Shown: positions 8,252 through 47,884 of the stretch, one piece after another
Layout of the letters: each line of letters begins with the position of its first letter
Numbering within the stretch: position 1 is the first letter of the stretch
Source: Acidobacteriota bacterium
GTDB lineage: Bacteria > Acidobacteriota > Terriglobia > Terriglobales > Acidobacteriaceae
Direction of reading: 5' to 3'
Assembly: GCA_021846275.1 (NCBI GenBank)
Contig: JAJZBZ010000003.1
Span: forward strand, 496,001-560,000
Length of the DNA: 64,000 nucleotides
The notes under the pieces: model-generated
What the model was told of the DNA's origin: nothing
The model's database searches: none
Seen by the model: only the letters and a program-made list of their open reading frames with translations
Program-made: the position numbers and the translations under genes

Positions 8252-9254
8252 CCACCCGTCGTCAGCGACTACTCGGAAAACTCGGCTCTGGCCAGCCAGA
8301 CGGGGTTAGCAATACATACACATCTCCTGACAAGCGCAAACAGCGCACCGCGGCAGGAACACACTGACATCCGGAAAATACAGACTGAGAAAACTGACAC
8401 AACGCCCGCGGACAGCAGAAAAGCCACGATCCACGCAGCCAGTCACCCGCACAACAGCATCAAAGTAAGGTGAATACCCGAAAAAATATGGGTTAAGTTT
8501 CCCCAATCATAACGGAATCCCACCTCGCGTCAACCTTTTTCTTTCATCCCATTCCCACTTCCCCAATCGTTTTCGCCCTTTGTTTGCGCACCATCCAGCG
8601 CATCCCGCCCCGCATCCATCTCCGTCACTCCACACCACCTCGTTCGTCGCGCATAGCCATTCCGCCCCGGACCATGCCGGAATTCATCCTCACCCCGCGC
8701 AGACCAATCGATTCCTCCGTCACTCTCCCGGTCGGTCGCCGCGCGATTCCCCTGCGGGATAAAAACGCTGACGGATGCCCGATCCTGGCCGCGCCTGGGT
8801 GGGAAAACGGTGCCGCACTTGCTCCGGCCGTTGTTTCTCCTGCGGTCATTCCTGCCGGGAATCCGCTGTCATTCCTCGCCGTCCTCATCCGCCGACGACG
8901 ACCCGTGACCAACAGCAGCGGCGCGAACGCGCATCCGCCGCAGGCCATGCCGGCAGGCAATTATTCGTCTTTCTGCCATACTGTTCTTCACGCGCCAGTC
9001 CTGCGCTCAAAACTGTGCCGTCAGGCAAGCGCAGAACGTTATAAAGCAGTACACGTTTCGCCACATTTTCGTTGACGAGAAAATAAATACCACCCCCCTG
9101 GGGGGGGTAACCGGGTTAATAGCAAACTGGTATATACGCAACAATCGATCTAAATATAAGATGGAAATTCACTTAATCATGAATCGCGGAAAGTCTGGTC
9201 AAACAGAACTCTCAGCCCGAAACGCTCATTCCTGGCTGAAATGCACGCAAAAGC

Positions 9255-10286
9255 TCACTTCGAGGCCTCAGAAAGCCGTCGCAGCGACGACGCCCGCGCC
9301 ATCAGCTTCGGCTCCAGAATCACCCGCTTCGGCTCCGGCTTCACGCGCGACTCGATCCGCTCCAGCACAATCGCCGCCGTCCGCCTGCCAATCTCCGCGC
9401 TCTGCTGGTCCATCGACGACAACGGCACGCGCAGCAGGTTGTCAAAATGCAGATTCCCGCAGCCCATCACGGCCAGATCCTCCGGAATCCGCAGCCCGGC
9501 TTCGAGCGCCGCCTGCATCGCCCCGATCGCCAGCGGATCGTTGAACGTGAACAGTCCGTCGGGACGCTCCGGCGCGCCCAGCAGTCGCCGCATCGCCTCT
9601 GCGCCATGCCGCGTCGCATCGCTGTCCACATGCTCGCCCACCGTCAGCAGTTCCTCGTGAAACGCGATTCCATGCGACGCCAGCGCGTCCCGATAGCCGC
9701 GCAGCCGCGCCTCCGCCGTGCCCACGCGCGGCCCGCGTATATGCGCGATCCGCCTGCAACCCTGCGCAATCAGGTGCTCGGTCGCCATCCGACCCGCCGC
9801 GTAGTCGTCAATCCCCACAAAATTTCCCTGTGCGCCTTCCACTGCGCGGTCGATCAGCACATACGCTCGCCCGGCCCGTTCCAGACGCTCTATCGTCCGT
9901 GCGTCGCTCGCGCAGGTGGCAATCACCAGCGCGTCCAGGTGCCGCGCCATCATCTGCTGAATCTCCCGCGCCTCGACCTCCGGCTCCTCGTCCGATGAGG
10001 CCAGCAGCAGCGAATACCCGCGTTTGCCCACCTCAGCCGAAAGCGCCACCGCCACCTCGGCAAAAAACGAATGCAGCAGCGAAGGCACCACCAGCCCGAT
10101 CAGGTAGCTGCGCCCCGTCACCAGGCTCCGCGCCATCAGGTTTGGCTGATAATCCAGTTCCTTCACCCGCTTCATCACCCGTTCCCGCGTCTCCTCGGCA
10201 ATATCCGGGTGGTCCCGCAGCACCTTCGAGATCGTCACCACCGACAATCCCAGGTCCTTCGCAATGTCTTTCATTCGTACCGTCAT
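9255..10286 (-). CDS. LacI-family transcriptional regulator
   Basis: MTVRMKDIAKDLGLSVVTISKVLRDHPDIAEETRERVMKRVKELDYQPNLMARSL; in-frame start inside ORF 9255..10673. Confidence 0.9.
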   Translation of the reverse strand: MTVRMKDIAKDLGLSVVTISKVLRDHPDIAEETRERVMKRVKELDYQPNLMARSLVTGRSYLIGLVVPSLLHSFFAEVAVALSAEVGKRGYSLLLASSDEEPEVEAREIQQMMARHLDALVIATCASDARTIERLERAGRAYVLIDRAVEGAQGNFVGIDDYAAGRMATEHLIAQGCRRIAHIRGPRVGTAEARLRGYRDALASHGIAFHEELLTVGEHVDSDATRHGAEAMRRLLGAPERPDGLFTFNDPLAIGAMQAALEAGLRIPEDLAVMGCGNLHFDNLLRVPLSSMDQQSAEIGRRTAAIVLERIESRVKPEPKRVILEPKLMARASSLRRLSEASK

Positions 10287-22344: not shown

Positions 22345-22516
22345 ACCTCTGCTTTTTGGTTACAGACCTCTGCTTTCGGACGGCAGCAGTCGGCGCAAAT
22401 CGACTGCTGCCTCGGCTCAGCAGAGGTCAGGAGCACGAAGACCTCTGCCGTTGTTCGGCAGAGATTTGACTGTCAGCGACTTCGAACAAAATGACTGATT
22501 CTGCTACGGCAGAGGT
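22345..22516. repeat. Cluster of ACCTCTGC/GCAGAGGT inverted repeats forming nested hairpins
   Basis: ACCTCTGC at 22345, 22366, 22441; GCAGAGGT at 22420 and 22509; inner 11-bp stem GGCAGCAGTCG/CGACTGCTGCC at 22382-22392/22401-22411; CTCTGCCG-TTGTT-CGGCAGAG at 22443-22463. Confidence 0.75.
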
Positions 22517-23828
22517 CATGGGGACCCGAAGTGATCCTCGCCGCTATGATGGTGAAGTGAAACAACATACGAAAGATGTGTATGTTATCCCGGCTGTCAT
22601 TGGGGTGATCCTGCTTCTGGCGGGATTGCCGCTCTCCGCGTGGTACACGAAGCAGCCTGTGCGAACTATCGTTACCTGGGCTGGAATTAAAGACATTCTC
22701 TTCGCCAGTGTTTCCGCCTGGACGGACATCATCCTTCTTCTGGCCCTGGTCGCGGTCGGATATTTCCTATATCGCGTCTACAGGCGATACAGGGAGGCCC
22801 AGAGGGAAAGCGATGCCCGTCACTCTGTGAATCTAAAGCTAGTCGAGCACATGCAGCAGAAGGAAAAGGAACACAAGATTGCTCTACAGGCCATTCAAAA
22901 CGATGGCCCGACGCTTCATGTTGCCTGGAATAAGGGACAGAGCATCTGGGGCCTCGGAGCGGTGGGCACAGAGCCATGTATGCAGATCGGCGGATGGGCA
23001 CACATCAGCACCAGCAATATCTCTGAAGAGATCCTGATCACGGATGCATACATCGAAGGTACGGAATCAAGAGGGATGATGCCCATCAAGGTGCATCCGC
23101 GATTCGTCCGTTACACGCAACTGATGACGTTTGTCGCGCCGGTTGTCGCCAAGCCGGGAGAGCCCTTCAAGGGCAAATTCATCCTAGTGGATCACAAGAA
23201 CCGGAAATACGTGCTTGAAGAGCACACCTTTCGATTTATCGGGTCTCAGCAGCAGATCGCGCAGGCGCTTCAGGCTGGCAAAGAGGAGCTTCCATCTTCC
23301 ATGGGCGCTCCAAACGCGGCGACAGACGAGGAGCTAACCATCAAAGCGCCGGATGACCTCACGATGCGAATTTGTCACTACCAGTTCCAGGAGACGAGAG
23401 GTCTGACGCTCGTCGTGGATAACAATCGTCTCAACGCAATTCATCAGATTAGAGTCATCGTTGCGGATGCCCAGAGCTTCGACCTCCATCACAATGCTTA
23501 CAGGCAAGGCTCCAACTTTGCCGCAGCGGTCGTTACGAAACCTAACGCCATCCAACCCTCCTGCTCAAGCAGTCCGATTCTGCTCGTCCGTAAAGACCCA
23601 TCGAACAAGAGCCTCCTGGCTGGCGACGATTCTAGTCATGCGATGGTGTGGCCGGAGAACGATACATCGGAGGTGGAACGGTGGCGCTTCACCCTACGGG
23701 TGATTGCCACGACGCTCCCTCGCAATGCTTCAGAGAAGGCGCTTCCGCTGAAGGAACTGCTTGCGACTCTCGTGTTGTTTTGGAACAAAGCAAATAATGA
23801 GTTCGCAATTGAGCAACACGGCGATTAG
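22491..23828 (+). CDS. Hypothetical protein with two predicted N-terminal TM helices and a large soluble domain
   Basis: 445 aa; VIPAVIGVILLLAGLPLSAWY and WTDIILLLALVAVGYFLYRVY hydrophobic segments; no family recognised. Confidence 0.6.
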   Translation: MTDSATAEVMGTRSDPRRYDGEVKQHTKDVYVIPAVIGVILLLAGLPLSAWYTKQPVRTIVTWAGIKDILFASVSAWTDIILLLALVAVGYFLYRVYRRYREAQRESDARHSVNLKLVEHMQQKEKEHKIALQAIQNDGPTLHVAWNKGQSIWGLGAVGTEPCMQIGGWAHISTSNISEEILITDAYIEGTESRGMMPIKVHPRFVRYTQLMTFVAPVVAKPGEPFKGKFILVDHKNRKYVLEEHTFRFIGSQQQIAQALQAGKEELPSSMGAPNAATDEELTIKAPDDLTMRICHYQFQETRGLTLVVDNNRLNAIHQIRVIVADAQSFDLHHNAYRQGSNFAAAVVTKPNAIQPSCSSSPILLVRKDPSNKSLLAGDDSSHAMVWPENDTSEVERWRFTLRVIATTLPRNASEKALPLKELLATLVLFWNKANNEFAIEQHGD

Positions 23829-24158
23829 CGAAACTGCCGCAACATACACAAAGCTCTACCACTTCCCAACGCCTCCGGATTGCGTCCTTACCGGCGGAGC
23901 AGGCGAGGCGCGTCCGCCCGAACTACCCACTTTTCTCACAATGCTCGTGACTTGTGATCGCAATTATCTGATTGCCCGCCCAAACAAGATATCTCCAGCT
24001 TAGTAGCATGTAAATCCAGAAAAATGAATACCATGCAGGGCCTTCTACTAAATAGAATGCGCAGGCTCACCAGTCTTACTTGGCTCCAAACAAAAATTGG
24101 CTCGACAAATAAGAGCCAATTGTGCTTTAATCATTTCAAGCTCATATCGAGGAGCCGC

Positions 24159-25589
24159 ATGACGAGGAGGCCATTGATGGATGTACCGCTTTTACCGGGT
24201 CTTGAAGAGAGCGCAGCTCCGCTCGATCCGCTTAACCCCGAAGACCAGGAGAACAAGAAGATGCCACGCGGAAGACGCCCCAAAGCGACGCCGGCCCCGA
24301 AAAAGGTCGAGCGTCAAGAAGCCTTGAAAAACCGCATCGTCGGTTTGGCCGAGGAGCTTAGCGGAGCGGGCTTCTCCGACTTGCTCACGGAATTGGTTCC
24401 GATCAAGCCGGTTGCGCCGGAAGTCGTGGACCAGAAAACGAGCGCTCGCATCGGCCATGTGGAAGAGACGCTCGCCGTCTACCTGCAACGAACTTCCATC
24501 AAGGACAATCTTTCGCAGCGGCCGCCGTTCGATCACATCGCCGACCCAATTTACCGCCGGCTGATGCGGGACTTCATTGTCGGCGCACAGATGCCGGAGG
24601 TAAAGATCGCCGCACTGCGGGATCTGAGCGGGCGCATCAAGTCGCTCGACGAGAACGACATCAACTACAGCATCATCGACGGGCTTCAGCGGTCCTGGTG
24701 CTACTCGACTACGGTTCTTCTTGCCCTGCACCGCGAGAAACTCGTGAGCGACCGCTGCATCACGGTCGAAGCGTGGGACTATTTCCGTCCTTTCATCGAA
24801 AAGCTCGGTGACCCACAGGTCGCAACCCGCGTGCTCCTAAGCCGCACGATCCGCTATGAGATTTACTACAACATCGACCTCGAAGGCCTGCTTCACTACA
24901 TGGTTACGTTCAACACCGCGCAGCGCCGCATGAGCCTGCAGGTGCAGCTCGAAATCATGCGCAAGCCGCTCATCGACGAAATTGAGGCCGCAGCCAACAT
25001 CACGGTTTTCCGGGACACGCACGACATCGAAACCACCGGCAAAGCGCAGAAGCCCCGGGATCAATTCGCCGCATCCGATATCGCGGTCGCCGCCGAAGCA
25101 TTTATCACCAACAATGCCCAGGCCTCACAAAAAGAGATCGCCGAAGACCTACTCGAGAAAGACAGCGGCTACACCGCCACTGGCGTTGATGTCGGGGACA
25201 TCGCCGATGTGGTGTACATGCTGAAGCGCGTCGCGCAAGATTTGCATCCGCTTATGCTGCTCATTTACTCAGACGAGCCGGGTAAGAAGTTCTACTTCTC
25301 CGGCGGCGGTACATTCCTCACCGGCTTCGCCGCAGCCTGCGGCTATGTGCGCAATCGCAACAACATGAAGATGCTTGAGGGGGCGCTCGAAAAGCTCGTG
25401 CTGCTGCTGAAGCAGCCGTCTGAAGATCCGCTCGGCCTCGATGAATACCAAGAGCTAATCAAGGACATTAAATCGTCACGCGGCAAGATGATGCGCCGCC
25501 TTGTTTACGACACGTTCCTCAGGTTTTTCCTGGGGACCACAACCCGGCTGGAGTGGACTGATGCGTACCGCTCCCTGAGCCTCACCTGA
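24159..25589 (+). CDS. DGQHR/ParB-like (DndB-like?) domain protein, hypothetical
   Basis: MTRRPLMDVPLLPGLEES start with GAGGAG upstream; INYSIIDGLQRSWCYSTTVLLAL resembles the xIVDGQQR motif of ParB/DUF262/DGQHR proteins; FNTAQRRMSLQVQLEIM downstream. Confidence 0.5.
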   Translation: MTRRPLMDVPLLPGLEESAAPLDPLNPEDQENKKMPRGRRPKATPAPKKVERQEALKNRIVGLAEELSGAGFSDLLTELVPIKPVAPEVVDQKTSARIGHVEETLAVYLQRTSIKDNLSQRPPFDHIADPIYRRLMRDFIVGAQMPEVKIAALRDLSGRIKSLDENDINYSIIDGLQRSWCYSTTVLLALHREKLVSDRCITVEAWDYFRPFIEKLGDPQVATRVLLSRTIRYEIYYNIDLEGLLHYMVTFNTAQRRMSLQVQLEIMRKPLIDEIEAAANITVFRDTHDIETTGKAQKPRDQFAASDIAVAAEAFITNNAQASQKEIAEDLLEKDSGYTATGVDVGDIADVVYMLKRVAQDLHPLMLLIYSDEPGKKFYFSGGGTFLTGFAAACGYVRNRNNMKMLEGALEKLVLLLKQPSEDPLGLDEYQELIKDIKSSRGKMMRRLVYDTFLRFFLGTTTRLEWTDAYRSLSLT

Positions 25590-25599
25590 GGAGAGCAAC

Positions 25600-25881
25600 A
25601 TGGCCAACTTCACCGTGCGCGTCGAGCTGCACCAAGCGGCCTACGCCGATTACGAAACCCTGCATGCCGCAATGGCGCAGAAGGGCTTCTCGCGGCAGAT
25701 CACCGCCGACAACGGACAGACCTACCACATGCCCTGGGCCGAATATAACGGCTTTGGCAATTTGACCAGTGTGCAGGTGCGGGACATCGCACGCGAGGCG
25801 GCGAACAGTACGGGTAAGGCGAACGCCGTTTTTGTTACGGAAGCACAAACGCGGGCGTGGATCGGCTTACCGGCTGCGTAA
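25600..25881 (+). CDS. DUF2622/GhoS-family-like small protein
   Basis: MANFTVRVELHQAAYADYETLHAAMAQKGFSRQITADNGQTYHMPWAEYNG; resembles DUF2622 small proteins from memory. Confidence 0.5.
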   Translation: MANFTVRVELHQAAYADYETLHAAMAQKGFSRQITADNGQTYHMPWAEYNGFGNLTSVQVRDIAREAANSTGKANAVFVTEAQTRAWIGLPAA

Positions 25882-25932
25882 TTTATCAGGCTGCATAAAT
25901 CGCAAAACCTTTGTTGTAAGGAGATAGCAATT

Positions 25933-26565
25933 ATGGCAAAGAACAGGGACATTGCACCACGGGACTCAAAGGGTAAAGTGACGTTTGTGATGTTTCAGGT
26001 GGAAGGCGACGATGAAACCCTCCAACAGGGTTTTCGTGCGATGGAGCAGGCCTTCCAACGCTTAGGCACGCCCGCACGCGTGCACGTTCCTGCCGCTCCC
26101 ATCGCCAACCTGCTGCCGAAAGGCGAGAGGTTGGACACAGTGCAGGTCGAGCCTGAGAATGTCGAGCAGGACAACGAACCTGAGTACACCGCACCGGAAA
26201 ACGGTAACGGCGACAACAATAAGCCAACTAAGCCCAGGAAGTATACGCAGCCGAATTTCTTAACCGACCTCGAACTCACCGCTGGCCAGGAGTCGTTCAA
26301 GGGCTATGCGGCGACGAAAGATCCGAAGTCGGACAATCAGAAATATCTCGTCGTCGCCCGGTGGCTGCAGCAGCATAAGAGCATCGACACGGTGACCATC
26401 GATCACATCTTCACCTGCTTCCAGGCGATGAAGTGGCCGAGCCAGAAGGACATCGGCCAGCCGCTGCGCTTCATGACGAGGAACAACAGCTATTTCCAGA
26501 AGAACGGAAAGGGGTGGAAGCTTACCCATGTGGGCGGCGATGCGGCGGATGCGATCGGTGGGTGA
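25933..26565 (+). CDS. Hypothetical protein with C-terminal winged-helix-like region
   Basis: 210 aa; disordered middle, then KYLVVARWLQQHKSIDTVTIDHIFTCFQAMKWPSQKDIGQPLRFM. Confidence 0.5.
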   Translation: MAKNRDIAPRDSKGKVTFVMFQVEGDDETLQQGFRAMEQAFQRLGTPARVHVPAAPIANLLPKGERLDTVQVEPENVEQDNEPEYTAPENGNGDNNKPTKPRKYTQPNFLTDLELTAGQESFKGYAATKDPKSDNQKYLVVARWLQQHKSIDTVTIDHIFTCFQAMKWPSQKDIGQPLRFMTRNNSYFQKNGKGWKLTHVGGDAADAIGG

Positions 26566-26568
26566 TCT

Positions 26569-27327
26569 ATGACACTGGCGGAGTTGGCGAAGGACGTCCC
26601 GAACCTGGCTACGTGGAACCATGTCGAGCGGATCAAACTCTTTGCGTGGTATCTGCACACACAAAAGAAGCAGGAATACTTCCAGGCACCCGACATCCGG
26701 AAGTGCTACGAGGAGTTGCATCTCGATCCTCCGTCTTCCATCAGTCCGTTCCTGGCGTCGATGGAAAAGAAGAAGCCTAAGGAGGTCTTGAAGAAGACGG
26801 AAGGTTTTCGACTAGAGATGCGCATTCGTGAAACGCTCGACAGGAAGTTCGGAACGCGCCAGATCACGGTGCAGGTGACCGAACTACTCGCCTGCCTGCC
26901 ATCCACGGTCCCGGACCTGGCGGAGCGCATATTCCTAGACGAAACGCTCGTTTGCTTCAAGCACGGCGCTTTTCGCGCTTCTATTGTGATGGCGTGGAAT
27001 TTGGCATATCACCACCTTTGTGATCACGTCCTGCGAAAGCATCTCGCGAAGTTCAATAGCCAATGGCCTCTTGTCTATCAGGGGCACCACAAGAAAGCCA
27101 ACAAGGCGATCAGCAAAATAGAAGACTTCGGCGACGAGCTCAAGGAATCGGAAGTGCTTGAAATCTGCAATTCCGCGGGGATCATCAGCAAGGACATCCA
27201 TAAAATCCTGAAGGCTAAACTGGACCGGCGGAATTCTGCGGCACATCCGTCGTCCGTGAAGATAGACCAGCTGCAGGCCGAAGAATTCATCGACGACATC
27301 GTTAAGAATGTCGTTCTGAAGATGTAA
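26569..27327 (+). CDS. Predicted HEPN-domain protein with N-terminal wHTH-like region
   Basis: LKAKLDRRNSAAHPS contains RNxxxH, the HEPN RNase motif; preceded by helical FRASIVMAWNLAYHHLCDHVL; ORF starts 3 nt after the previous stop. Confidence 0.55.
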   Translation: MTLAELAKDVPNLATWNHVERIKLFAWYLHTQKKQEYFQAPDIRKCYEELHLDPPSSISPFLASMEKKKPKEVLKKTEGFRLEMRIRETLDRKFGTRQITVQVTELLACLPSTVPDLAERIFLDETLVCFKHGAFRASIVMAWNLAYHHLCDHVLRKHLAKFNSQWPLVYQGHHKKANKAISKIEDFGDELKESEVLEICNSAGIISKDIHKILKAKLDRRNSAAHPSSVKIDQLQAEEFIDDIVKNVVLKM

Positions 27328-27368
27328 CTACCTGCTACCTGCTTTATTGAAATTGCCCTGGAGGAGCG

Positions 27369-28202
27369 ATGAGCTCAAACAAAGCGCCTGTGAACGATGC
27401 CATCATTGTGGCGGTGGCCCAGCTGGTCAACGATGCCCAGTCGGGCACGCGTGAGCCGAGCCATTCGGATCTCGAATTCCAGATCAATCGCGGAGGACTC
27501 AGCGGTGGCGATCCGAAAACGCAGGGCCAGACGGTCGGCAAAGCAAAGCGTGTACGTGCGGTGCTTTCCTGGGGTGTCGACAATGCGCCGGACAAGGCCG
27601 AAGCATTTGTATTTGCCCTTATCGGGCTGCTAAGGGGTAAAGGCGGATTCCGTTCTGGTTCTTCCAACTATGCCGGTGACGATGCGATCTTTGAAGCGCG
27701 TGAGGCATTCCGCCTTGAAGGATATGTACTCTCCGATGAGGGGGAACTGTACGCAAGCACGCTCGACAATCTTTCCGGGGTGCGACTGACGGTCGCGCTT
27801 GAAGCCTATGTGCGACGCGCGCAGCGCGGCAGCGAAGACGGAGCGCTGCTTGTCGGCACCGGCAAAGATCTTCTCGAGGCCACCGCCTCGCACATCATCA
27901 CTGAAAAATGCGGACACTATTCACACCAAGCCAACTTTCCGACGCTGCTCAGCCAGGCATTTACTGCTCTCGGGCTCGCGACGCCGCAAACGCCGGCACA
28001 GGCTGCCGAGGCCCCACAGCGGCGCGTCGAGCGGTCGCTGTATGAGGCGGGGTGTGCCGTCAATGCACTGCGCAACAAGACCGGCACGGGTCATGGCATC
28101 CCGTTTGTGCCGTCCGTTTCCGACGACGAAGCACGTGCCGCAGTCCAATTGATCGGGATCGTATCCGGTTTGCTGTTGCGTGCATTGAAAAAGACGTCCT
28201 AG
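27369..28202 (+). CDS. Abortive infection family protein (Abi_C-like C-terminus)
   Basis: KDLLEATASHIITEKC...LPTLLSQAF-like region and VNALRNKTGTGHGIPF match the Abi_C pattern (RNxxGxGHG). Confidence 0.65.
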   Translation: MSSNKAPVNDAIIVAVAQLVNDAQSGTREPSHSDLEFQINRGGLSGGDPKTQGQTVGKAKRVRAVLSWGVDNAPDKAEAFVFALIGLLRGKGGFRSGSSNYAGDDAIFEAREAFRLEGYVLSDEGELYASTLDNLSGVRLTVALEAYVRRAQRGSEDGALLVGTGKDLLEATASHIITEKCGHYSHQANFPTLLSQAFTALGLATPQTPAQAAEAPQRRVERSLYEAGCAVNALRNKTGTGHGIPFVPSVSDDEARAAVQLIGIVSGLLLRALKKTS

Positions 28203-28228: not shown

Positions 28229-29347
28229 TCACTCCTGCGCAGCCGCAATTGCCTTGGCAGTGAGCCCGTTCCGGAAGAAGTTTTCCTGTTTTCTTATTCC
28301 TCGACCGAAGAAGCCGTGGTAGTTGCGATATACGGATTCGGTGGCAGACTTTGGGCCTCCGGTAATGACGACGAATTCCGGCGGCGGGCTCATTGAGAGC
28401 TGGATCCGCTTCAGTAGGTGCTTAAATTCGTAATCTGCAGCTGGAAGCGAATAGCCGATGAAAATCCATTTCTTCGCCTGACGCAGCAGTCGCTCCGCTG
28501 ATAACCAGGACCGTTCAAACATGGGAAAATCCAGGGCTTTCAGGTAGCTAAATGTCGCAATGCGAGTAGTTAGCGGCACGTCCGTGCAGTTGGAACAGCG
28601 CCATTTCGCACAGCCGCTTACGTCATGCAAATTCAAACTATCCGCTTCGTTACCTGTTATCAGCTGCATCGAAATGGATAACCCATCCTTCATCGGAAAC
28701 CAGTAGAGCTGACGGCAATTGTCGCAGTAGAGCCAATTGACAGAGCCATGAATCTTCACGATAGGGATGGTGGCCTTTCCGTCAGGTGGCTGATGACCTG
28801 CTACGACATTGCCTTTCGAAGGAAATACAGCGGGCAACGCTCCGCAGCGGTAATCAATGCTATGTGTCTCCGCCAAGCCAGCCACTTTTCGCTCTATGAC
28901 GGTATCCCAATTAATTGAAATGAAGCCGCTATCTTTCGTGTTTAGCTTCTGGAAAAAGCGATCTAAACGCCGCCAGTCTGCATCCTTTGCAGATTCGGCT
29001 TTAGCAAATCTCTCATCAAGCATGCGTATCATTCGCGCTAGGAGCACACGCCGCGTCTTTCGCAAGTCGGACGGAGCATGTTCATGGCCGAGATGGTGAC
29101 CCGTATTCGCCGCCAAGTCGATGTTAGTGAAGACATCTTCTAAGCTGGGCCAAAACTTCGCATTTGCGTCCTTCTTGTGATCAAAGGCATCGTGCACGAA
29201 CTTTCCCAAATAGTCTGCCAATGGCCGCATTGGATGGCATTCGTTTGCTCTTGGCTCTAGGAGTGCCTTCGTGAATTCACTTTGCAGCGGCAGTCCTGCA
29301 TGCTTTGAAAAGCCGGCGCCGACGATGTAGACATGCGAACGTGCCAT
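28229..29347 (-). CDS. SIR2-like domain protein with zinc-ribbon cysteines (defence-associated type)
   Basis: VYIVGAGFSKHAGLPLQSEF, SINWDTVIE, KIHGSVNWLYCDNC, CAKWRCSNC, FIGYSLPAADYEF. Confidence 0.75.
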   Translation of the reverse strand: MARSHVYIVGAGFSKHAGLPLQSEFTKALLEPRANECHPMRPLADYLGKFVHDAFDHKKDANAKFWPSLEDVFTNIDLAANTGHHLGHEHAPSDLRKTRRVLLARMIRMLDERFAKAESAKDADWRRLDRFFQKLNTKDSGFISINWDTVIERKVAGLAETHSIDYRCGALPAVFPSKGNVVAGHQPPDGKATIPIVKIHGSVNWLYCDNCRQLYWFPMKDGLSISMQLITGNEADSLNLHDVSGCAKWRCSNCTDVPLTTRIATFSYLKALDFPMFERSWLSAERLLRQAKKWIFIGYSLPAADYEFKHLLKRIQLSMSPPPEFVVITGGPKSATESVYRNYHGFFGRGIRKQENFFRNGLTAKAIAAAQE

Positions 29348-32028: not shown

Positions 32029-35000
32029 CTATTGCACCAGTTCCATCAGCTTTCCATAGCTGTCAACGACTTCATAGCGCACCTGATCAGACGTGATCTT
32101 CGCGAAGAATTTCCGCGCACACTTGATCTTGGCCTCCTCAATCCCTCGCAGTTCAAGAGTCGATAGATCGCCTTTGGTCTCGGCGACGAAATACACGTGC
32201 TTCACGCTGCCTTCTTTGAAGGCGATCGCCCAATCCGGGCTGTAGTTGCCGACAGGGGTGGGGATGAAGAAACTCTTTGGCAGTTTCGCGTAAACCTCAA
32301 CCTCCGCGCCCTTATCCAATTGCTTCACGAACTCTCGCTCAGTGTTTGCGTCCACAAAAACGTAGTCGTAGATATGGCGCGCGACTTCAACAGCTTTTGA
32401 AGAATCTGCCTTTGGCTTTTCCTGGGAGAAGATGTCGATGTCGTAGCTCTGAGATGTGGCGTTGTACGTCAGATGCTCAATAATGACCGAAGCTTTTTGC
32501 TCATTGATCAGTCGCCCAGCCACTCGCAGGAAGTCCTCCGGATTCAATCGAAAGAGCGCGAACCTCGACGGTGCAATGCGATGCAGGATTGCGCCGACGG
32601 TGCGCCTTGTCAGTTGCGTTTCCTCGGCAAGTTTGCCAAGCAAGTCGTAGGGCACTTGGGACTGTACGGAGGTTTGAAGAGCAGACGTCTGCGTCTGAGG
32701 CGTTGCAAACCCATCGCCCCCTCGTAGCGCCTCGTATGTCGTCTTCGCGGTCTGCTCGCCTCGCTCCACCACATACTGCAACGGCGCAACCTGAAGATCG
32801 GTGTCCAGGGCCGCGACCGCCTTCTCGATCAGTTCCTCTGTGCGGAACGAAACGCTGTACACCGCCTTGCCGTGAATTCTGCTCCAAAGCTCGCGAAACT
32901 CCCTCTTCTCAAAGTTGGCGTTCAGCTTGTTGGATCGTAGATTCCGATCATCTTCGGGAGTCGGCAGGTCAGCAGGATTGAAGACAGAATCCACGAGTTT
33001 GAGCAGCTCCGCAGCATGAGGAGCCAGCGACGGCGGCAACGCAGCAAGTGTTCCGGCTGCCTTCGCTTCGTGATAGTCCGGGGTGATCACGTGCTTGTCA
33101 TCGCTGTATCCATTCACCAGCAGCCAAGCCGACAACATCTGAGCCATTTTCTCGGAGACTTCAACTTCGCCCGCTTCTGTATGGAGGATCTTGCCCGTAA
33201 AGAAAGCCGTATCGGCCCTGCGAGGCCGCGCTGAAAGAGCCTCCAACATATCCTTCTGGAGGCCGGAGACGAACTCCTTGTAGCCTTCGCTCGCAATGAC
33301 GGTCAGCACGTTGATCTGGTGTACCGTTGCCGGATCATCCATGCGGTCGCCGTTCTGATTCACCGCCAGGCGCAGGCCGCGACCAACCTCCTGGCGGCGC
33401 GAGATATTGTTCTCGCTATGCTTCAGCATTCCGATCACGAATACGTTCGGATTGTCCCAGCCCTCGCGCAGCGCGGAGTGCGAGAAAAGGAATCGCACCG
33501 GCTCGTCAAAGGAAAGCAGCCGCGCCTTGTTGCGGAGGATCAAATCGTATGCCGATTGGTCGTCGGATTCATCCGAACGCGCAGCCGTGCCAGGATTCAC
33601 CATCCGGCCTTTTTTGTCCTGCGAGAAATAGCCATCGTGCGTACGTCCGACTTCGATCTTCTTCAAATACTCGCCATACGCGCCACCATAGAGACTCTGC
33701 ACCTCGTTCAACTGACGCGTGTACTCTTCCTCAAAGAACTTTGCGTATTCTCCCGGCTGCTCACCGGCATCGTCATAGCGGCGGTACTTCGCAACTTCGT
33801 CAATAAAAAACAGCGACAACACTTTAATGCCGCGCGGAAAGAGTTCGCTTTCCTTCTCGAAGTGCGCCTGAATCGCCTCGCGAATCTGGATGCGGCGCAG
33901 CGCGGCCTCGGTCACATCGCCAGCTGCATCTCCAGCCGTAAGCACCTGACCATTGGTAAAGTGCAGCGTGTTGTCGCGCGCATCGATCTCGGAGACGACA
34001 TAGCCGTCGTACTGATCCAGGTCGTTCGACTTGTCAAAAAGGTTGTCGCCCTTGCCCAGCGTCCGCCACTCTTTGCGGATCGACTGCTTGCCGCGAATCT
34101 CCATCTCCACCTTCGCCACCGGAGACTTGCCGGGCGCAATGTCGATGCGCTCCAAGTAGAGGTAAGCATTCGTTCCGGCCAGGCCCTTCGCTTTCACGCC
34201 ACGCACGGCAATCTTTTTCACCAGCTTCTGGTTGTAGGCGTCGAGCGCGTCCAGGCGATAGACCTTGTTGTGCTCTTTGCGGTGCGTTGCGGAGTAGCGC
34301 AGCACAAACAGCGGATCGAACTCCTTCAGGCCTTCAGCCGTCTTCTCGCCTTCCATCTTCTGCGGCTCATCCATGATCAGGATGGGACGATTTCGCTTGA
34401 GCACGTCGATAGGCCGCCGCGACTGGAAGTCGTCCAGCTCTTCGTAGATGCGACGAGCATCTTTGCCGCGAGCGTTGAACGCCTGCACGTTGATGATCAT
34501 GATGTTCACGCCGGCGTCCGACGAAAAGCTCTCCAGCTCATGCAACTGGCGCGAGTTGTAGATGAAGTACCGCGCCTTCTTTCCGTATAGCTCCTGAAAA
34601 TGCTCGGTTGTATCCTTCAGCGACTGAGCCACGCCTTCGCGGATGGCCACGCTGGGAACCACGACGATGAACTTGCTCCAGCCATAGCGGCGATTCATCT
34701 CGAAGGCTGTACGGATGTAGCAGTAGGTCTTGCCTGTGCCCGTCTCCATCTCCACATCGAGATTGATGTTGCTGGCCGGGGTGCGCTCCAGTGCGGTCGA
34801 GAGCGGCAGGTTCTGCCGTCGCTGCACAGCCTGGATATTCTTCAGCAAGACTTCGCCCGGCAGCAGGATGTCCTGGTTCTTGAAGCCCTCGTCAAACTCC
34901 ATCGGGGCCTGCTGACTCTTCGCAAGCCGGCCCGGATCGAGGCGATACCTGCGGACATCGGACAGCGGCTGACCCTCAAAGCAATCGGCGACGGCTTCCA

Positions 35001-35073
35001 CGGCATCGATCTGGTACTGCTGCTGTTTGAACCTGAGCTTCATCTTTTCTCTGCAACTTCTCTTGAATTTCAA
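32029..35073 (-). CDS. Type III restriction enzyme Res-like subunit (DEAD/DEAH helicase-nuclease)
   Basis: MKLRFKQQQYQIDAVEAVADCFEGQP, DVEMETGTGKTYCYIRTAFEM, PILIMDEPQKMEG, SHSALREGWDNPNVFVIGML, QEVGRGLRLAV. Confidence 0.88.
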   Translation of the reverse strand: MKFKRSCREKMKLRFKQQQYQIDAVEAVADCFEGQPLSDVRRYRLDPGRLAKSQQAPMEFDEGFKNQDILLPGEVLLKNIQAVQRRQNLPLSTALERTPASNINLDVEMETGTGKTYCYIRTAFEMNRRYGWSKFIVVVPSVAIREGVAQSLKDTTEHFQELYGKKARYFIYNSRQLHELESFSSDAGVNIMIINVQAFNARGKDARRIYEELDDFQSRRPIDVLKRNRPILIMDEPQKMEGEKTAEGLKEFDPLFVLRYSATHRKEHNKVYRLDALDAYNQKLVKKIAVRGVKAKGLAGTNAYLYLERIDIAPGKSPVAKVEMEIRGKQSIRKEWRTLGKGDNLFDKSNDLDQYDGYVVSEIDARDNTLHFTNGQVLTAGDAAGDVTEAALRRIQIREAIQAHFEKESELFPRGIKVLSLFFIDEVAKYRRYDDAGEQPGEYAKFFEEEYTRQLNEVQSLYGGAYGEYLKKIEVGRTHDGYFSQDKKGRMVNPGTAARSDESDDQSAYDLILRNKARLLSFDEPVRFLFSHSALREGWDNPNVFVIGMLKHSENNISRRQEVGRGLRLAVNQNGDRMDDPATVHQINVLTVIASEGYKEFVSGLQKDMLEALSARPRRADTAFFTGKILHTEAGEVEVSEKMAQMLSAWLLVNGYSDDKHVITPDYHEAKAAGTLAALPPSLAPHAAELLKLVDSVFNPADLPTPEDDRNLRSNKLNANFEKREFRELWSRIHGKAVYSVSFRTEELIEKAVAALDTDLQVAPLQYVVERGEQTAKTTYEALRGGDGFATPQTQTSALQTSVQSQVPYDLLGKLAEETQLTRRTVGAILHRIAPSRFALFRLNPEDFLRVAGRLINEQKASVIIEHLTYNATSQSYDIDIFSQEKPKADSSKAVEVARHIYDYVFVDANTEREFVKQLDKGAEVEVYAKLPKSFFIPTPVGNYSPDWAIAFKEGSVKHVYFVAETKGDLSTLELRGIEEAKIKCARKFFAKITSDQVRYEVVDSYGKLMELVQ

Positions 35074-35206
35074 TTTTTCTGACGCAGAATAAATTGAAAC
35101 AAGCCCTTACTCTTGTGCAACTTGACGAATCCAGCCCACTCAAATCCGGCTGTGATTGACTATTTTTTCTGCGCAAATTTCAAGCCGAAATTGATCAACG
35201 GCTTCA

Positions 35207-37117
35207 TCAGAGGCAACGAACCTCCGTCTCCGGAGAGTAGAACTTGAAAATCTGCTCGACGTTGATCTTGGCGGCGTCGGAACTGTAGCTGGCGTCGCGG
35301 AAGACAGCGCGCAGGGGCTTGCGCTCTGCGATCTGCTTTACGAACTCGTCCGTCAGCCCGAAGTCGAGGCAAGCGGCCAGCGCGTTCCCGTCCACGAAGA
35401 ACACTTGCTTGCCGTCTATGGTCTCAGACGCGATGGGCGAGGCAAGGTCCACGCCCCAATCGAGCAGCACCTGGAAGAGCAGGTCTTCCGGTGTGCGGTC
35501 GGGTTTGATGTTGTCTACATGGTCGAGCAGGCTTGCTTGCTGCGTCTCATCGGGTGTGTAATAAACGTCCTGCATGTTGGAAGTGTCGATCTTGAGCGCA
35601 CGGAAGCCAGTGTCAATCTTAGCGAAGGCATTGGCATCTCTGAGGTCGCTGCCTGCCTTCGTAACGCGAGCCTTCGTGATCTCAGAGAGCATTGCTGGCT
35701 TTCCTAATGCTGCACAAGTCTCAAGTGCAGCTAGGTCTGAGGACTCTGATTCGCTCAACGGCTGTGGGAACTGAATGAGGATAAACCGTCGCTCGGATCC
35801 GTCTTCGGCGTTTTGCTGATAAACAGCATCTCCGAACGTGCCACTGCCAGCGAAGAAGTCCATAACAAGATCATTATTTGCTGACCCGATAGACAAAACG
35901 CGCTTCAAAAGTCTTACTGGTTTTGGGTTTGGGAAGGGGGAACGAGTACCTCCGAAAAGCTTCGCAAGCTCTTTGGTCCCTTCATCTGTATGCCCCACTT
36001 GGTCAAACGTCCAAAGCGTTTGTGGCGGAATCTTCTCGCGAACCTCACTTCTGAAGCGCTTCAAACGCGGGCGGGCATCACCTTTTTCTCCAAACCATAA
36101 ACGGTTATCCGCTTTTAGTTCCGCCATCTTTTCTTTGTTGTATCTCCAGCTACTTCCTCTTGGAGGTAGATACTCGCTACCATTCGGGCCAATAACGGGA
36201 TAGATAGCGTATGCTCTCTCTTCCGTTCGCAAGAGATTGTCAGAGGTCCAGGCACCTCTGGCATCATTGTCTGGGTTTTTATAGATGCTTTCTTGCGAAT
36301 CCGTACGGGATAGGCCGTCAATCAAAGCCATTTCTGATTTGCGAAAGCACAAAAGATATTCGTGGCTCTCTGAAAAATTTGCAGAATCGGCCTTTGTACT
36401 GTATTTCTTTTGCCAGATTACAGTCGCAACGAAATTATCCGCCCCGAACACCTCATCACAGAGCTTTCGCAGGTTGTGCTGTTCGTGATCGTCGATACTA
36501 ACAAACAAGAAGCCGTCTTCGCGAAGAAGATTCCTGGCTAGCCTCAGCCTTGAATAGAGCATGTCGAGCCAAGCGGAGTGGAATCGACCATTGGCATCCG
36601 TGTTAGTGACAAGTCGACCATTCTCATCCTGCTGATTCGAAAGTTGGAGATAGTCTGCTCTTCCCACCGCGAAATCATCCTCATACAAGAAATCATTCCC
36701 GGTGTTGTACGGAGGATCGATATAGATCAGCTTGACCTTGCCGAGGTACGTCTCCTGCAGCAGCTTGAGCGCGTCGAGGTTGTCGCCTTCAATGAAGAGG
36801 TTCTTGGTGGTGTCGAAGTCCACACTCTCTTCGCGGCAGGGGCGTAGCGTCTTGGCAATGGGAGCGTTGGCCGTGAGGATGGCTTCGCGCTTGCCCGGCC
36901 AGTCCAGACGATAGCGCTCCGCTGGCCCCTCGACGATATGGTCGGAGAGTTCCTGGCGCAACTGGTCGAAGTCAATGGCCTGCTTCACGTTCCCGTGCTC
37001 ATCGCGGGACTCGGTGACGCAGTTCGGCAGCAGCTCGGCAATCTGGCGAATCTTCTCCGCCGTCAGGTCAGGCGAGTGCATCTTGAGTTTGTCCATGGCA
37101 ACTCGTTCTCTTTCCAC
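35207..37117 (-). CDS. Type III-like site-specific DNA methyltransferase (Mod, N6-adenine type)
   Basis: LFIEGDNLDALKLLQETYLGKVKLIYIDPPYNTGNDFLYEDDF (DPPY), VMDFFAGSGTFGDAV. Confidence 0.88.
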   Translation of the reverse strand: MERERVAMDKLKMHSPDLTAEKIRQIAELLPNCVTESRDEHGNVKQAIDFDQLRQELSDHIVEGPAERYRLDWPGKREAILTANAPIAKTLRPCREESVDFDTTKNLFIEGDNLDALKLLQETYLGKVKLIYIDPPYNTGNDFLYEDDFAVGRADYLQLSNQQDENGRLVTNTDANGRFHSAWLDMLYSRLRLARNLLREDGFLFVSIDDHEQHNLRKLCDEVFGADNFVATVIWQKKYSTKADSANFSESHEYLLCFRKSEMALIDGLSRTDSQESIYKNPDNDARGAWTSDNLLRTEERAYAIYPVIGPNGSEYLPPRGSSWRYNKEKMAELKADNRLWFGEKGDARPRLKRFRSEVREKIPPQTLWTFDQVGHTDEGTKELAKLFGGTRSPFPNPKPVRLLKRVLSIGSANNDLVMDFFAGSGTFGDAVYQQNAEDGSERRFILIQFPQPLSESESSDLAALETCAALGKPAMLSEITKARVTKAGSDLRDANAFAKIDTGFRALKIDTSNMQDVYYTPDETQQASLLDHVDNIKPDRTPEDLLFQVLLDWGVDLASPIASETIDGKQVFFVDGNALAACLDFGLTDEFVKQIAERKPLRAVFRDASYSSDAAKINVEQIFKFYSPETEVRCL

Positions 37118-37845: not shown

Positions 37846-38520
37846 TCAGCCTGGATCAGCTCCCAGAAGTCCCTGCAGGAGTGACTTTGCCTGGCGCAGC
37901 TCTGCGTTGATCTCCACCTTACGGTTGTACTGATCTTCCTTGCGCATACGAGCCTCCAGCCTGTCGCACACCAGCCGCTGAGAGCGGATACGGATGCCGC
38001 GCTCGGCGGTGGCTTCGAGCGGCTCTCCGGCGCGGGGTTCGAGCCCAGCGGCACGCATATGGCAGTGCAGCATCTGCTGGTAGAGACTGTCCATATCAAT
38101 AGCGACGGGCAGTGCCGAGCGCGGCGCGGACGCATCCTGCCATGGCGACCAGTAGTAGGCCGCGACAAACTGCTTACTGTGGTCGGCCTCGCTGCCGCGC
38201 TTGTACGCCGCCACAAAACGAACGCGCCCCTGGAATGTCAGCTCAAAAAACAATTGCGACGGAATGGCGCGGTCGAGAGTGCGAAGGATGTCTTCTTTCA
38301 GTTCCGGTCCGCGCTGCGCAATGGAGAATATCTGAATCTCCTTCACCTCTACGCCTGCGGGCAGGTTGATCGTGGCTGGCGCAAGCTTGTATTGCCAGGT
38401 AATTGTGTCTACCTGATCGACGAACTTCTGACGCAATGCCCGACGCGGTTGAGCATGCCCATAGACCTTGTTCTTGGGTAAAACATGCTCATAGAGCGCG
38501 CGTTCCGGATATGCAAACAT
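37846..38520 (-). CDS. DUF4391 domain-containing protein
   Basis: MFAYPERALYEHVLPKNKVYGHA ... TWQYKLAPATINLPAGVEVKEIQIFSI; adjacent to the SNF2 helicase gene. Confidence 0.7.
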   Translation of the reverse strand: MFAYPERALYEHVLPKNKVYGHAQPRRALRQKFVDQVDTITWQYKLAPATINLPAGVEVKEIQIFSIAQRGPELKEDILRTLDRAIPSQLFFELTFQGRVRFVAAYKRGSEADHSKQFVAAYYWSPWQDASAPRSALPVAIDMDSLYQQMLHCHMRAAGLEPRAGEPLEATAERGIRIRSQRLVCDRLEARMRKEDQYNRKVEINAELRQAKSLLQGLLGADPG

Positions 38521-38522
38521 GA

Positions 38523-41500
38523 CTACGCCTCTGTTGGCGGTTCGATAACGAGAAATGCCAGGAGCTCAAAGTCTCCGATGCTGCTGCTGGGGCCGGTAAG
38601 CGCTGTGGTCTCTTGCCCGCGGAAAAGACTGTCGAGGTCGTGCTCCTCCTTGACTTGAACGATCGATCGGATGGCTGCGTTCAGAAGATTGGAGTAGGCG
38701 GACATCTCGCGACCATCCTGCGTGCGCTCGTTGAAAGGCGAATAGGCAGTCGAAATCAGCTCAGCGAACGGCTTTGCCGAGACGCGGAGCAGATCAAGCA
38801 GCTTCTTGACCTCGGTGTGCGGCATGACCGGCTTTCCAGCAAGATCGACATAGACGAGGTAGTACGGATGCAGGCGATTCAGCCGATCAATGTTCACGCC
38901 GTCATTTCGATTTCGAAGAGCAAAAATCACGCCCGGTACGAGTCCGTGTTCCGGATTTGCAGGCAAGACGGCATGAAGGCCGGTCGGCTGGCGCTCAAGG
39001 CCGGGATTAGCCTTGACGTAATGGAGCAGGTCCATGCGGAAGTCATTCAGGCCAAGATCGGTGATACTGACACCCGCTTTGAGGTCTTCGAGCTCGATCA
39101 CTTCATCTTGCAGCCGTCGCAGTTGTTCCCTGCGATAGGAGAGGTCGTTGGACTTGCCGTCGAGCGGGTTGTCGTCGCCGGTGGCCGTTACGTCTGCAAT
39201 GATCATGCGGCTTTCGACACGCTCGCGCAGGCGTATATATTCATCGAGCGAGATGTCCGGCCAGTAATTTACGAGTTGAATGGAAGCGTTCTTCGAACCG
39301 ATACGGTCGATGCGCCCAAAGCGCTGAATGATGCGCACAGGGTTCCAATGGATGTCGTAGTTGATGAGGTAGTCGCAGTCCTGGAGGTTCTGACCCTCCG
39401 AGATGCAGTCTGTTGCGATGAGCAGATCGATTTCGCCGTCGACCTCCGGGTACAGAAGGGTCTTTTCCTTCGAAACTGGCGAGAAAAGAGCCAGAATCTT
39501 CTGAAAGTCAGTGATGTGCGATAGAGTAGTCTTCGGATCGGATGAGCCAACCACCAACGCTGAGTGCAAACCGTGTTCCGCAAGGAGCGCCGGAGCAAGT
39601 TGGCTATAAAGATACGCCGCTGTATCGGAGAATGCAGTAAAGACGATAACCTTCCTGTTACCTGGATTGATCGGTGATGCAATCTTGTCCAGAATGTGCT
39701 TCCGCAGATGCTGCAATTTTGCATCGTGCGGCGCGGGCACTTTCTCCATTTCACACAACAAATCCTGGATCGTTTCCAGATCGTCGCGAAGATCTTGTTC
39801 CCAGGCGGCCAGGTCCATGTCTGCGAGGCGAATGACTACCTTGCCAGCGGTTTGTTCCTCCGACGGATCGAAGAACTCGACATCCTCATCCGGCTCGTTG
39901 TCTTCCATCTCGATTGAGCGGTCGAATATCCTGCCGCCCTGTCCGGTACTCTGATAACGCTCAATGCTAGCTAATGTGTGGAGATGAATTTCCTGGAGCC
40001 TATGCAAGGTAAGGCGAAACGCGTGAACGGAGCTTTCGAGCCGTTTCAGCAGGTTGATCGTCATCAGCTTCCGCAGGCTTTGCTCGCGGTCACGCTGGCG
40101 AAGCCGACCGCCGCCGCCGCTGACTTCCGTGTCATAAGCCATTTCATACTCAGCCATTCGACTCGGGAGAATATAGCTGATTGGCGTATACACGCCGAGC
40201 TTCAGTATAGAAAGCTGTATGAATATTTCATCGAAGCCGATGACATCCCTTCGCTCAGTCAGGGGACTTCGGAACGATAACGGCTTACGACGTTCCGGAA
40301 AATGCCCAATCTCGTCCACGTCGTAAAAGGTTGTGATGTGTCGGCGCGACCGAGCAATCGTAACCGCATCCAGCAGCTTGAAGAAATCAAAGTCTAACGA
40401 AGACAAGATTGCCTCGGGCGTGCGCTCTTCGACGGGTAGTCTCGACCAGACGTTGAAGGCCGCCTGAGCGCGGCGAAAAATCTGATTCACATCGCGCGTC
40501 GTCCCAAGCTTTCCGCTGAACACCTTCGCTTCGCCTTCGTAGGCGAGTGCGAGCTGATTCTTCAGATCATTGAAGCGATTGTTGACCGGGGTTGCCGAAA
40601 GCATCAGGACTTTCGTCTTCACGCCCTCGCGAATGATTCGGTTCATCAACCTCTGGTAGCGTGTCTCACGGTGCTTGAAGGCGTCATCGTTGCGGAAATT
40701 GTGCGATTCATCAATGACAACGAGATCATAGTTGCTCCAGTTGATGCGATCCAGCCGCAGCCCGAGTGACTCACCCCCCTCACGCAGGAGGTCAGTATGG
40801 CAGAGGACATCAAAATTGAAGCGATCTTTATGGAGAGGATTGTTCCTCAGGTTACCTTTGTAATTCGTCCAGTTCTCGGCAAGCTTCTTCGGGCATAGCA
40901 CGAGCACTGATTTGTTGCGGAGCTCGTAATATTTAATGACGGCCAGAGCCGTGAACGTCTTGCCAAGTCCAACGCTGTCGGCCAGGATGCAGCCGTTATA
41001 CGTCTCAAGCTTATTGATGATTCCGGTCGCGGCGTCCTTCTGAAAGCTGTAAAGCTTGTTCCAGATCAGGCTCTCCTGATAGCCCGTGCGCTCATTGGGC
41101 AACACGTCTTCGCTGATGTCTTCCAGGAACTCTTGAAAGATGTGGAACAGGATCAGAAAATAGATGCGTTGCGAGGAATTCTCCTGATAGACAGCAGCAA
41201 TATGTGCACGAATGGCTTCAGTCACATCGGAAACCTGCGCCGGGCTATTCCATATCTGCGAGAAGAGCGCAAGATAATGCTGGGTGTGCGTCGGCTCCTT
41301 GAACTTGTGGACAAAATTTGAGACGGCGTTGCCGCGCTCGTACCCAAGGTCTACAGCAGTGAAGCCTTGCAGTGGACTGTAAACAATCTGATCCGTTCCG
41401 CTCTTTATACATGCAAATTGCTGCATGAAAGCCCCTGTGCGATTGGAGCGGAATTGTGCCTTACGTTGAATCCACTCTGCACACTCTTTCGCGATGGCAC

Positions 41501-41804
41501 GTTGGGTGAGCTTATTCTTCAGGTGAATTTCAAACTCAGTTCCGAAGATCCCCCGCTCTGCTCCCGAATCCTGGAGTTGGAACTGGCGAGGCTGGCGTTC
41601 TGCTTTATCCGCGACTTCGTTGGGCACAAATGTGGGTCGGGTGAATATGAACTGCACAGATTCAACAGCTTCAAGCTCTGACTTCAGAGCTTCATATGCA
41701 TAGATTGAAAACGCCGACGCTGCGACGGAGAGCGTCGAGTTGGGACGAAGTGAACCCATGAGATCGTCCCCAAGCAGGTTGCTGATGTTGTCAATTACGT
41801 CCAT
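38523..41804 (-). CDS. SNF2/RapA-like helicase with N-terminal PLD-like region
   Basis: ILADSVGLGKTFTALAVIKYYE, VIDESHNFRN, LMLSATPVNNR, DCISEGQNLQDCDYLINYDIHWNPVRIIQRFGRIDRIGS. Confidence 0.85.
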   Translation of the reverse strand: MDVIDNISNLLGDDLMGSLRPNSTLSVAASAFSIYAYEALKSELEAVESVQFIFTRPTFVPNEVADKAERQPRQFQLQDSGAERGIFGTEFEIHLKNKLTQRAIAKECAEWIQRKAQFRSNRTGAFMQQFACIKSGTDQIVYSPLQGFTAVDLGYERGNAVSNFVHKFKEPTHTQHYLALFSQIWNSPAQVSDVTEAIRAHIAAVYQENSSQRIYFLILFHIFQEFLEDISEDVLPNERTGYQESLIWNKLYSFQKDAATGIINKLETYNGCILADSVGLGKTFTALAVIKYYELRNKSVLVLCPKKLAENWTNYKGNLRNNPLHKDRFNFDVLCHTDLLREGGESLGLRLDRINWSNYDLVVIDESHNFRNDDAFKHRETRYQRLMNRIIREGVKTKVLMLSATPVNNRFNDLKNQLALAYEGEAKVFSGKLGTTRDVNQIFRRAQAAFNVWSRLPVEERTPEAILSSLDFDFFKLLDAVTIARSRRHITTFYDVDEIGHFPERRKPLSFRSPLTERRDVIGFDEIFIQLSILKLGVYTPISYILPSRMAEYEMAYDTEVSGGGGRLRQRDREQSLRKLMTINLLKRLESSVHAFRLTLHRLQEIHLHTLASIERYQSTGQGGRIFDRSIEMEDNEPDEDVEFFDPSEEQTAGKVVIRLADMDLAAWEQDLRDDLETIQDLLCEMEKVPAPHDAKLQHLRKHILDKIASPINPGNRKVIVFTAFSDTAAYLYSQLAPALLAEHGLHSALVVGSSDPKTTLSHITDFQKILALFSPVSKEKTLLYPEVDGEIDLLIATDCISEGQNLQDCDYLINYDIHWNPVRIIQRFGRIDRIGSKNASIQLVNYWPDISLDEYIRLRERVESRMIIADVTATGDDNPLDGKSNDLSYRREQLRRLQDEVIELEDLKAGVSITDLGLNDFRMDLLHYVKANPGLERQPTGLHAVLPANPEHGLVPGVIFALRNRNDGVNIDRLNRLHPYYLVYVDLAGKPVMPHTEVKKLLDLLRVSAKPFAELISTAYSPFNERTQDGREMSAYSNLLNAAIRSIVQVKEEHDLDSLFRGQETTALTGPSSSIGDFELLAFLVIEPPTEA

Positions 41805-47882: not shown

Positions 47883-47884
47883 CC

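Follow-up and report, generated by a model that had tools for sequence, protein, structure and literature searches.

A defence-island cassette of three separable units headed by a putatively self-regulated DzbA-family gene in an Acidobacteriota bacterium

The window analysed here is a stretch of 64,000 nucleotides (nt) from an Acidobacteriota bacterium (GenBank assembly GCA_021846275.1, contig JAJZBZ010000003.1, positions 496,001 to 560,000), and the subject of this work is a row of five genes within it, O1 to O5, together with a repeated element directly upstream of O1. An earlier note, made from the sequence alone, had taken these genes for a single undescribed five-gene defence system. Comparison with the neighbourhoods of homologues shows, in place of a fixed five-gene system, three separable units: O1-O2, O3-O4 and O5. 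We propose, with about as much confidence as doubt, that three independently moving units are stacked here in a defence island, with O1, a gene that would regulate itself, at the head. The reading bears on how immune operons that kill the cell are kept silent. The gene families are already known; what is new is the modular reading, the candidate O1 operator and the idea of DzbA-type proteins as portable controllers.

Three separable units

The cassette comprises the following features:

24080-24119, + strand: candidate O1 operator, TTGGCTC (24080-24086) and then the perfect inverted repeat TTGGCTC-GACAAATAA-GAGCCAA (24097-24119)
O1, 24159-25589, + strand, 476 amino acids (aa): DzbA-family protein with a DUF262/DndB-like fold, putative DNA-binding autorepressor
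O2, 25600-25881, + strand, 93 aa: YmfI/GhoS (DUF2622)-like small protein
O3, 25933-26565, + strand, 210 aa: small protein, possibly with a winged-helix domain at its C-terminus; opens the O3-O4 pair
O4, 26569-27327, + strand, 252 aa: HEPN-like protein, putative ribonuclease (RNase) effector, with RNSAAHP at residues 221-227
O5, 27369-28202, + strand, 277 aa: Abi_C-family abortive infection protein with the motif LRNKTGTGHG

As the earlier note had it, the five open reading frames are collinear with gaps of 3-51 nt, those of O1/O2, O2/O3, O3/O4 and O4/O5 being 10, 51, 3 and 41 nt, respectively. The motifs it had picked out (SIIDGLQRSW in O1, DRRNSAAHP in O4 and ALRNKTGTGHG in O5) are also present, and their conservation in homologues places them beyond chance. 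Scans for promoters and terminators between the genes returned matches at chance level only, and a scan of the cassette for known RNA families gave nothing above chance. On these results, co-transcription of O1-O5 is plausible.

An alignment of O1 was scanned against 85,462 species genomes and found seven loci; overall, orthologues occur in seven other distinct loci, once redundancy is considered (L007 and L010 share 99.99% identity, and the pairs L006/L009 and L003/L012 each represent a single contig stretch). The DNA of the window matches L007 and L008 over 24093-25866 only, that is O1 and O2 plus about 66 nt upstream, stopping at the end of O2, and its homology with L009 covers O1 only. Moreover, co-conservation of the five genes, which the note would have predicted, was not seen: when the neighbourhoods of homologues were compared, no second locus carried the set, and the single five-gene system was therefore rejected. 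O3-O4 and O5 are each found in the absence of the other genes, O1-O2 precedes other effectors, and O1 is also found alone; the outcome that the note had named as refuting its reading has thus largely come about.

The O3-O4 unit is found as an adjacent pair on the Ochrobactrum plasmid pLM19O1 and on the IMG/VR viral contig L028 (43-45% identity for O4, 27-29% for O3), at both loci without O1, O2 and O5. Pairs of similar-sized genes with distant relatives of O4 are also present in genomes G266 and G355; in G266, two successive pairs of a small-protein gene and a HEPN-like gene are followed by a TIR gene (L019, 4720-8292). The prediction that the fourth gene encodes a HEPN protein holds in the sense that O4 is HEPN-like. 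Four homologues, the most distant at 24% identity, all retain residues R221, H226 and P227 of its RNxxxHP motif, and a Foldseek search with the C-terminal half gave a list dominated by HEPN proteins, each with E > 0.5. O4 itself is sub-threshold against Pfam HEPN_RiboL-PSP (16.6 vs 28.4 bits). Homologues of O4 align with PADLOC PD-T7-3 (E = 4e-6 and 7e-12) over its N-terminal, HEPN part; PD-T7-3 is reported to contain a HEPN domain (PMC10952713). A structure match to Dandelion-HEPN (E = 0.15) was not used as evidence. O4 shares the RNxxxH motif with these families, but differs from them in its length of 252 aa, its own N-terminal domain and its dedicated partner O3. A RiboL-PSP-HEPN gene in an operon with ParB has been noted before (PMC3710099). 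By its motif, O4 may be an RNase effector.

For O3 we found no family match. Its C-terminus shows weak similarity to the N-terminus of O4 (hhalign E = 0.007, better than 20 shuffles), and this similarity does not establish O3 as a winged-helix protein. One reading, which we judge equally apt to be right or wrong, is that O3-O4 is a self-standing toxin-antitoxin-like pair, with O3 a DNA-binding antitoxin and O4 a HEPN RNase toxin, inserted behind O1-O2. The adjacent or overlapping arrangement on the plasmid and the viral contig and the similar-sized pairs in G266 and G355 favour it, whereas in the window O3-O4 shares strand and close spacing with O1-O2. This reading is compatible with, and not exclusive of, the stack headed by O1.

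The third unit, O5, was rightly called Abi_C-like, scoring 46.7 bits against the Pfam Abi_C (PF14355) cut-off of 24 (E = 3e-12), and four homologues with 39-54% identity retain LRNK.GTGHG. These homologues are solitary genes annotated as abortive infection family in Metabacillus, Exiguobacterium and others, across several phyla. O5 therefore agrees with the family in score and motif, but here it is the last gene in a row behind O1-O4, whereas in the other loci seen it is solitary. O5 may also be an RNase. In genome G380 a LexA-like gene is followed, after about 30 nt, by a homologue of O5; in L021 (7202-8704, - strand) an Abi_C gene with 54% identity to O5 stands directly behind a LexA-like repressor gene. 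A LexA-like gene before an Abi_C gene hints at damage-controlled expression of the Abi_C effector.

O2, the second gene of the first unit, was described in the note as DUF2622-like or GhoS-like, and this can be extended: it is GhoS/DUF2622- and YmfI-like, with matches below the curated cut-offs. It matches phrog_8894 (E = 3e-24), NCBIfam YmfI (NF051477) over its full length (46.3 bits against a cut-off of 140, E = 4e-12) and Pfam GhoS (PF11080) over about two thirds (17.1 bits against a cut-off of 21, E = 0.005). It differs from these proteins in scoring below both cut-offs and in that no GhoT partner was seen. O2 follows O1 in L007, L008 and L010 at 78-85% identity.

O1 and its upstream element

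The start of O1 is better placed at ATG 24159 than at the upstream in-frame ATG 24024, because DNA homology to relatives starts at 24093 and because the element at 24080-24119 would fall inside the longer frame. O1 is a DzbA-family protein with a DUF262/DndB-like (ParB-related) fold. It matches PADLOC DzbA, of the Dazbog system, with E = 5e-29 over model positions 7-373 of 393, and it is homologous to a strong DzbA from genome G881 (PADLOC E = 4e-91; blastp 25% identity, E = 4e-17), which is itself sub-threshold against Pfam DUF262/GmrSD_N (E = 0.003). In L050 (101-2652) a strong DzbA gene overlaps a DNA methylase-like gene at the contig end. O1 fell into no Pfam or NCBIfam family, and it gave no match at E up to 1 to Pfam DUF262/GmrSD_N (PF03235) or to NCBIfam DGQHR/DndB TIGR03187. 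A Foldseek search of BFVD (viral proteins) with a predicted structure of modest quality gave mostly DUF262/GmrSD_N and DNA-sulfur-modification (DndB/DGQHR) proteins, at probabilities of 0.97-1.0; the top match had E = 5e-5, the best named DUF262/GmrSD_N match E = 6e-4, and two matches fell below E 0.001. These fold neighbours bear out the suggestion that the first gene is ParB/DGQHR-like. The motif IDGLQR is invariant in six homologues, and O1 is under purifying selection (dN/dS, the ratio of nonsynonymous to synonymous substitution rates, is 0.05-0.07), with synonymous sites saturated between loci (dS > 1).

The statement that no named system is matched stands in part. O1 is a homologue of DzbA across nearly the whole of that model, but filing the locus as Dazbog was rejected since the partner DzbB was not found: the DzbB model gave no match in O1-O5, the own genome or nine further O1-bearing genomes, although its sensitivity is unproven, no positive control having scored against it. 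O1 also differs from Dazbog in an extra N-terminal region of about 90 residues, in its other neighbours and in its conserved candidate operator.

In the window this element reads TTGGCTC-N10-TTGGCTC-N9-GAGCCAA, and its general form is GGCTn-N12-GGCTC-N9-GAGCC. It precedes O1 in 7/8 distinct loci from two phyla. In the window and in L007, L008, L009, L011 and L012, the core GGCTC-N9-GAGCC lies before O1; there is no further copy in the window or in any of these loci, and the core turns up in 0-1 of 200 dinucleotide-preserving shuffles (by a simple swap-based shuffle). In all six, the third half-site GGCTn sits exactly 17 nt upstream of the core (as GGCCC in L012), and an offset scan showed no other peak. 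Genome G1071, fetched later as a test locus, carries TTGGCTC-N10-TTGGCTC-N9-GAGCC about 150 nt upstream of O1. Among the eight distinct loci the element is absent only from L013, where the O1 homologue (8031-9295) is split by a frameshift and is probably decaying. In the own genome the element is the only perfect copy. The exact pattern was matched three times in viral contigs, without O1 and among phage-type genes, and we take these matches as chance.

Since synonymous sites of O1 are saturated, conservation of the element implies selection. No gene other than O1 is shared by every locus that carries the element, and O1 is therefore its likeliest binder; by comparison of these loci, O1 most likely binds its upstream palindrome.

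Effector contexts and a candidate controller

Within an Acidobacteriota clade of 87-89% identity, O1 lies directly upstream of, and on the same strand as, three different immune-effector sets. In L007, L008 and L010, O1 (88-89% identity) and O2 are followed by a cyclase of the cyclic oligonucleotide-based anti-phage signalling system (CBASS) and then by a Cap15 effector; for L007 and L008 the cyclase has E = 3e-121 and 2e-125 and Cap15 E = 3e-15 and 7e-15, and the cyclase starts about 260-325 nt after O2. In L006/L009, O1 (87%) is without O2 and is followed by four ThsB-type/TIR genes, the first of which probably begins about 30 nt after O1. Upstream lies a type I restriction-modification (R-M) operon, HsdR-HsdM-HsdS, with the R-M, O1 and ThsB genes all on the same strand. 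The third context is the HEPN and Abi_C genes of the window. In L006 (5902-10352) the four ThsB/TIR genes behind O1 face a TIR gene and a SLOG (LD_cluster2/STALD) gene, and this is possibly an unusual multi-ThsB Thoeris-like locus.

Known regulators offer two kinds of comparison. The DGQHR protein DndB binds as a dimer to palindromes of the form TACG-N10-CGTA and is a repressor of its own operon (PMC4507180). O1 resembles DndB/DptB in motif type (IDGLQR vs DGQHR), in fold neighbours that include DNA-sulfur-modification proteins, in a palindrome upstream of its own gene (N9 in O1 vs N10 in DndB) and in being the first gene of a defence-type operon; it differs in lacking a TIGR03187 match and dnd genes, in its unrelated half-site, and in that its repression is predicted. 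Because of the shared motif type, the predicted fold neighbourhood and the upstream palindrome, O1 may be a DndB-like autorepressor. Secondly, CapW/BrxR, CapH-CapP, CapK-CapS and RptR head diverse immune operons (PMC9122601, PMC9122588, PMC13373217, PMC12255303), and capKS has been reported with R-M on one side and an effector operon on the other, 88/443 capKS loci being located immediately downstream of R-M (PMC13373217). O1 likewise heads CBASS, Thoeris-like or RNase operons with a palindromic element, and in L006/L009 it is sandwiched between an R-M and an effector operon as CapK-CapS are. It differs from these controllers in lacking WYL, HTH-protease (helix-turn-helix protease), STAS and kinase domains and in having another fold, and the regulation by O1 is a prediction. 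As known controllers head diverse immune operons, some of them between R-M and effectors, a controller role for O1 in the Acidobacteriota clade is suggested.

We therefore envisage that O1 would bind two sites in its own promoter region, the palindrome GGCTC-N9-GAGCC and the additional half-site located 17 nt before it, and would repress its own operon in the way that DndB represses dnd. The O1(-O2) head may, within the Acidobacteriota clade, hold differing growth-arresting effectors in check, here the O3-O4 HEPN pair and O5. Upon infection a signal would make O1 release the operator, and higher levels of the putative O4 RNase and of O5 could then arrest the cell before phage release. O2, being GhoS/YmfI-like, might act by trimming mRNA of the operon or might help O1. 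That O1 binds DNA, represses and controls downstream genes, that O4 and O5 are RNases and that the locus acts against phages are all read from sequence and context. The "sensing and abortive RNase module" put forward in the note survives as a conjecture, with O1 likelier a controller than the dedicated sensor of a fixed five-gene system.

More broadly, we tentatively suggest, short of expecting it to be so, that DzbA-type proteins with a DUF262/DndB fold are portable repressors of immune operons, a new class with its own three-half-site operator that can stand before CBASS, Thoeris-like TIR and HEPN/Abi_C effectors. To our knowledge, few controller classes for cell-killing immune operons exist (WYL, HTH-protease, STAS-kinase, RptR and DndB). 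If true, a DzbA-family controller with a sharply defined operator at CBASS, TIR and HEPN loci would be a new one, Dazbog and DndB would be linked to immune regulation, and it would be suggested that the A component of Dazbog works via sequence-specific DNA binding.

Several results weigh against O1 as a controller. The structural model is modest (AlphaFold mean pLDDT, the predicted local distance difference test score, of 61, best over residues of about 43-240) and comes from a shallow alignment; Foldseek against PDB returned insignificant ParB-like matches only (Noc, PadC); and hhalign against DUF262 or DGQHR aligned the right IDG-QR motif, yet scored no better than shuffled controls, improving slightly when the strong DzbA was added to the O1 profile. 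The effector contexts number only three, all in Acidobacteriota, and the cyclase behind O2 could have its own promoter. Moreover, O1 stands before several different immune operons in those three contexts but is solitary in four diverged loci: in L011 (Candidatus Binatus), L012/L003, L013 and G1071, at 50-55% identity, no effector lies behind it. O1 therefore cannot be solely a controller of downstream effectors, and these genes argue for an additional or independent function, a serious rival to the controller role.

In the form of this rival that we considered, O1, by itself or together with O2, would make up a whole Dazbog-like defence and would sense phage DNA, perhaps in modified form; its neighbours would be mere island co-residents, and the palindrome would serve simple autoregulation that leaves those neighbours uncontrolled. 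Homology to DzbA fits this account, as do the solitary O1 genes in L011, L012 and G1071 that retain the element, and defence genes cluster anyway. The DUF262 gene of Dazbog is required for defence and has been proposed to recognise methylated DNA (PMC10952713). However, DzbB was found in none of the ten O1-bearing genomes tested, and the controller is favoured by the three different effector sets that follow O1 immediately on its strand, the first ThsB probably starting about 30 nt after O1; we regard the independent gene as possible but on the doubtful side. No relatives of O1 were found on plasmids, phages or viral contigs.

It is unlikely that the element is an RNA hairpin (an attenuator or processing site) or the site of a host regulator rather than the O1 operator. 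Its transcript would fold strongly (z -4.3), but outer-arm positions vary without compensation in L007, L011 and L012, the left TT becoming AA or TA while the right AA is kept, and DNA half-sites are therefore favoured over an RNA hairpin. The third half-site fixed at exactly -17, the single perfect copy in the own genome and the way the element follows O1 across phyla also stand against it. Lastly, that the five genes are one co-adapted abortive-infection system, with O1 as sensor, O2 as modulator and two RNase effectors, is very unlikely: the shared strand, the short gaps and the want of a convincing internal promoter or terminator would suit it, but the set has no second locus, O3-O4 travels alone, solitary O5 genes occur in several phyla and the DNA match to relatives goes no further than the end of O2.

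Island setting

The placement of the cassette in an island, as the note described, agrees with the GC content of that island, 52-58% against 60-67% in the flanks. A tyrosine integrase (49313-50389) beside tRNA-Gly/tRNA-Cys bounds the island on one side, and the stretch 46941-50389, in which ISL3 transposase fragments accompany the integrase by tRNA-Cys/tRNA-Gly, is the likely point of island integration. The same island carries further defence-like genes besides a type III R-M system. The latter lies on the - strand at 32029-37117 and consists of a restriction enzyme (PADLOC E = 0) and a methyltransferase (E = 9e-230). Convergent with O5, at 28229-29347 (- strand), is a gene for a SIR2/AbiH-like protein, which matches PADLOC SIR2 with E = 1e-6 and scores below threshold for Pfam SIR2_2 and AbiH; it is probably a defence gene of its own. 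At 37846-41804 (- strand) a DUF4391 gene adjoins a gene for an SNF2-type helicase that matches PADLOC C3a139 (HKD+Snf2; E = 5e-118), and the two are possibly another defence pair. Upstream of O1, at 22491-23828 (+ strand), a gene with no confident family assignment, not conserved at the other O1 loci, encodes a predicted membrane protein of 445 aa.

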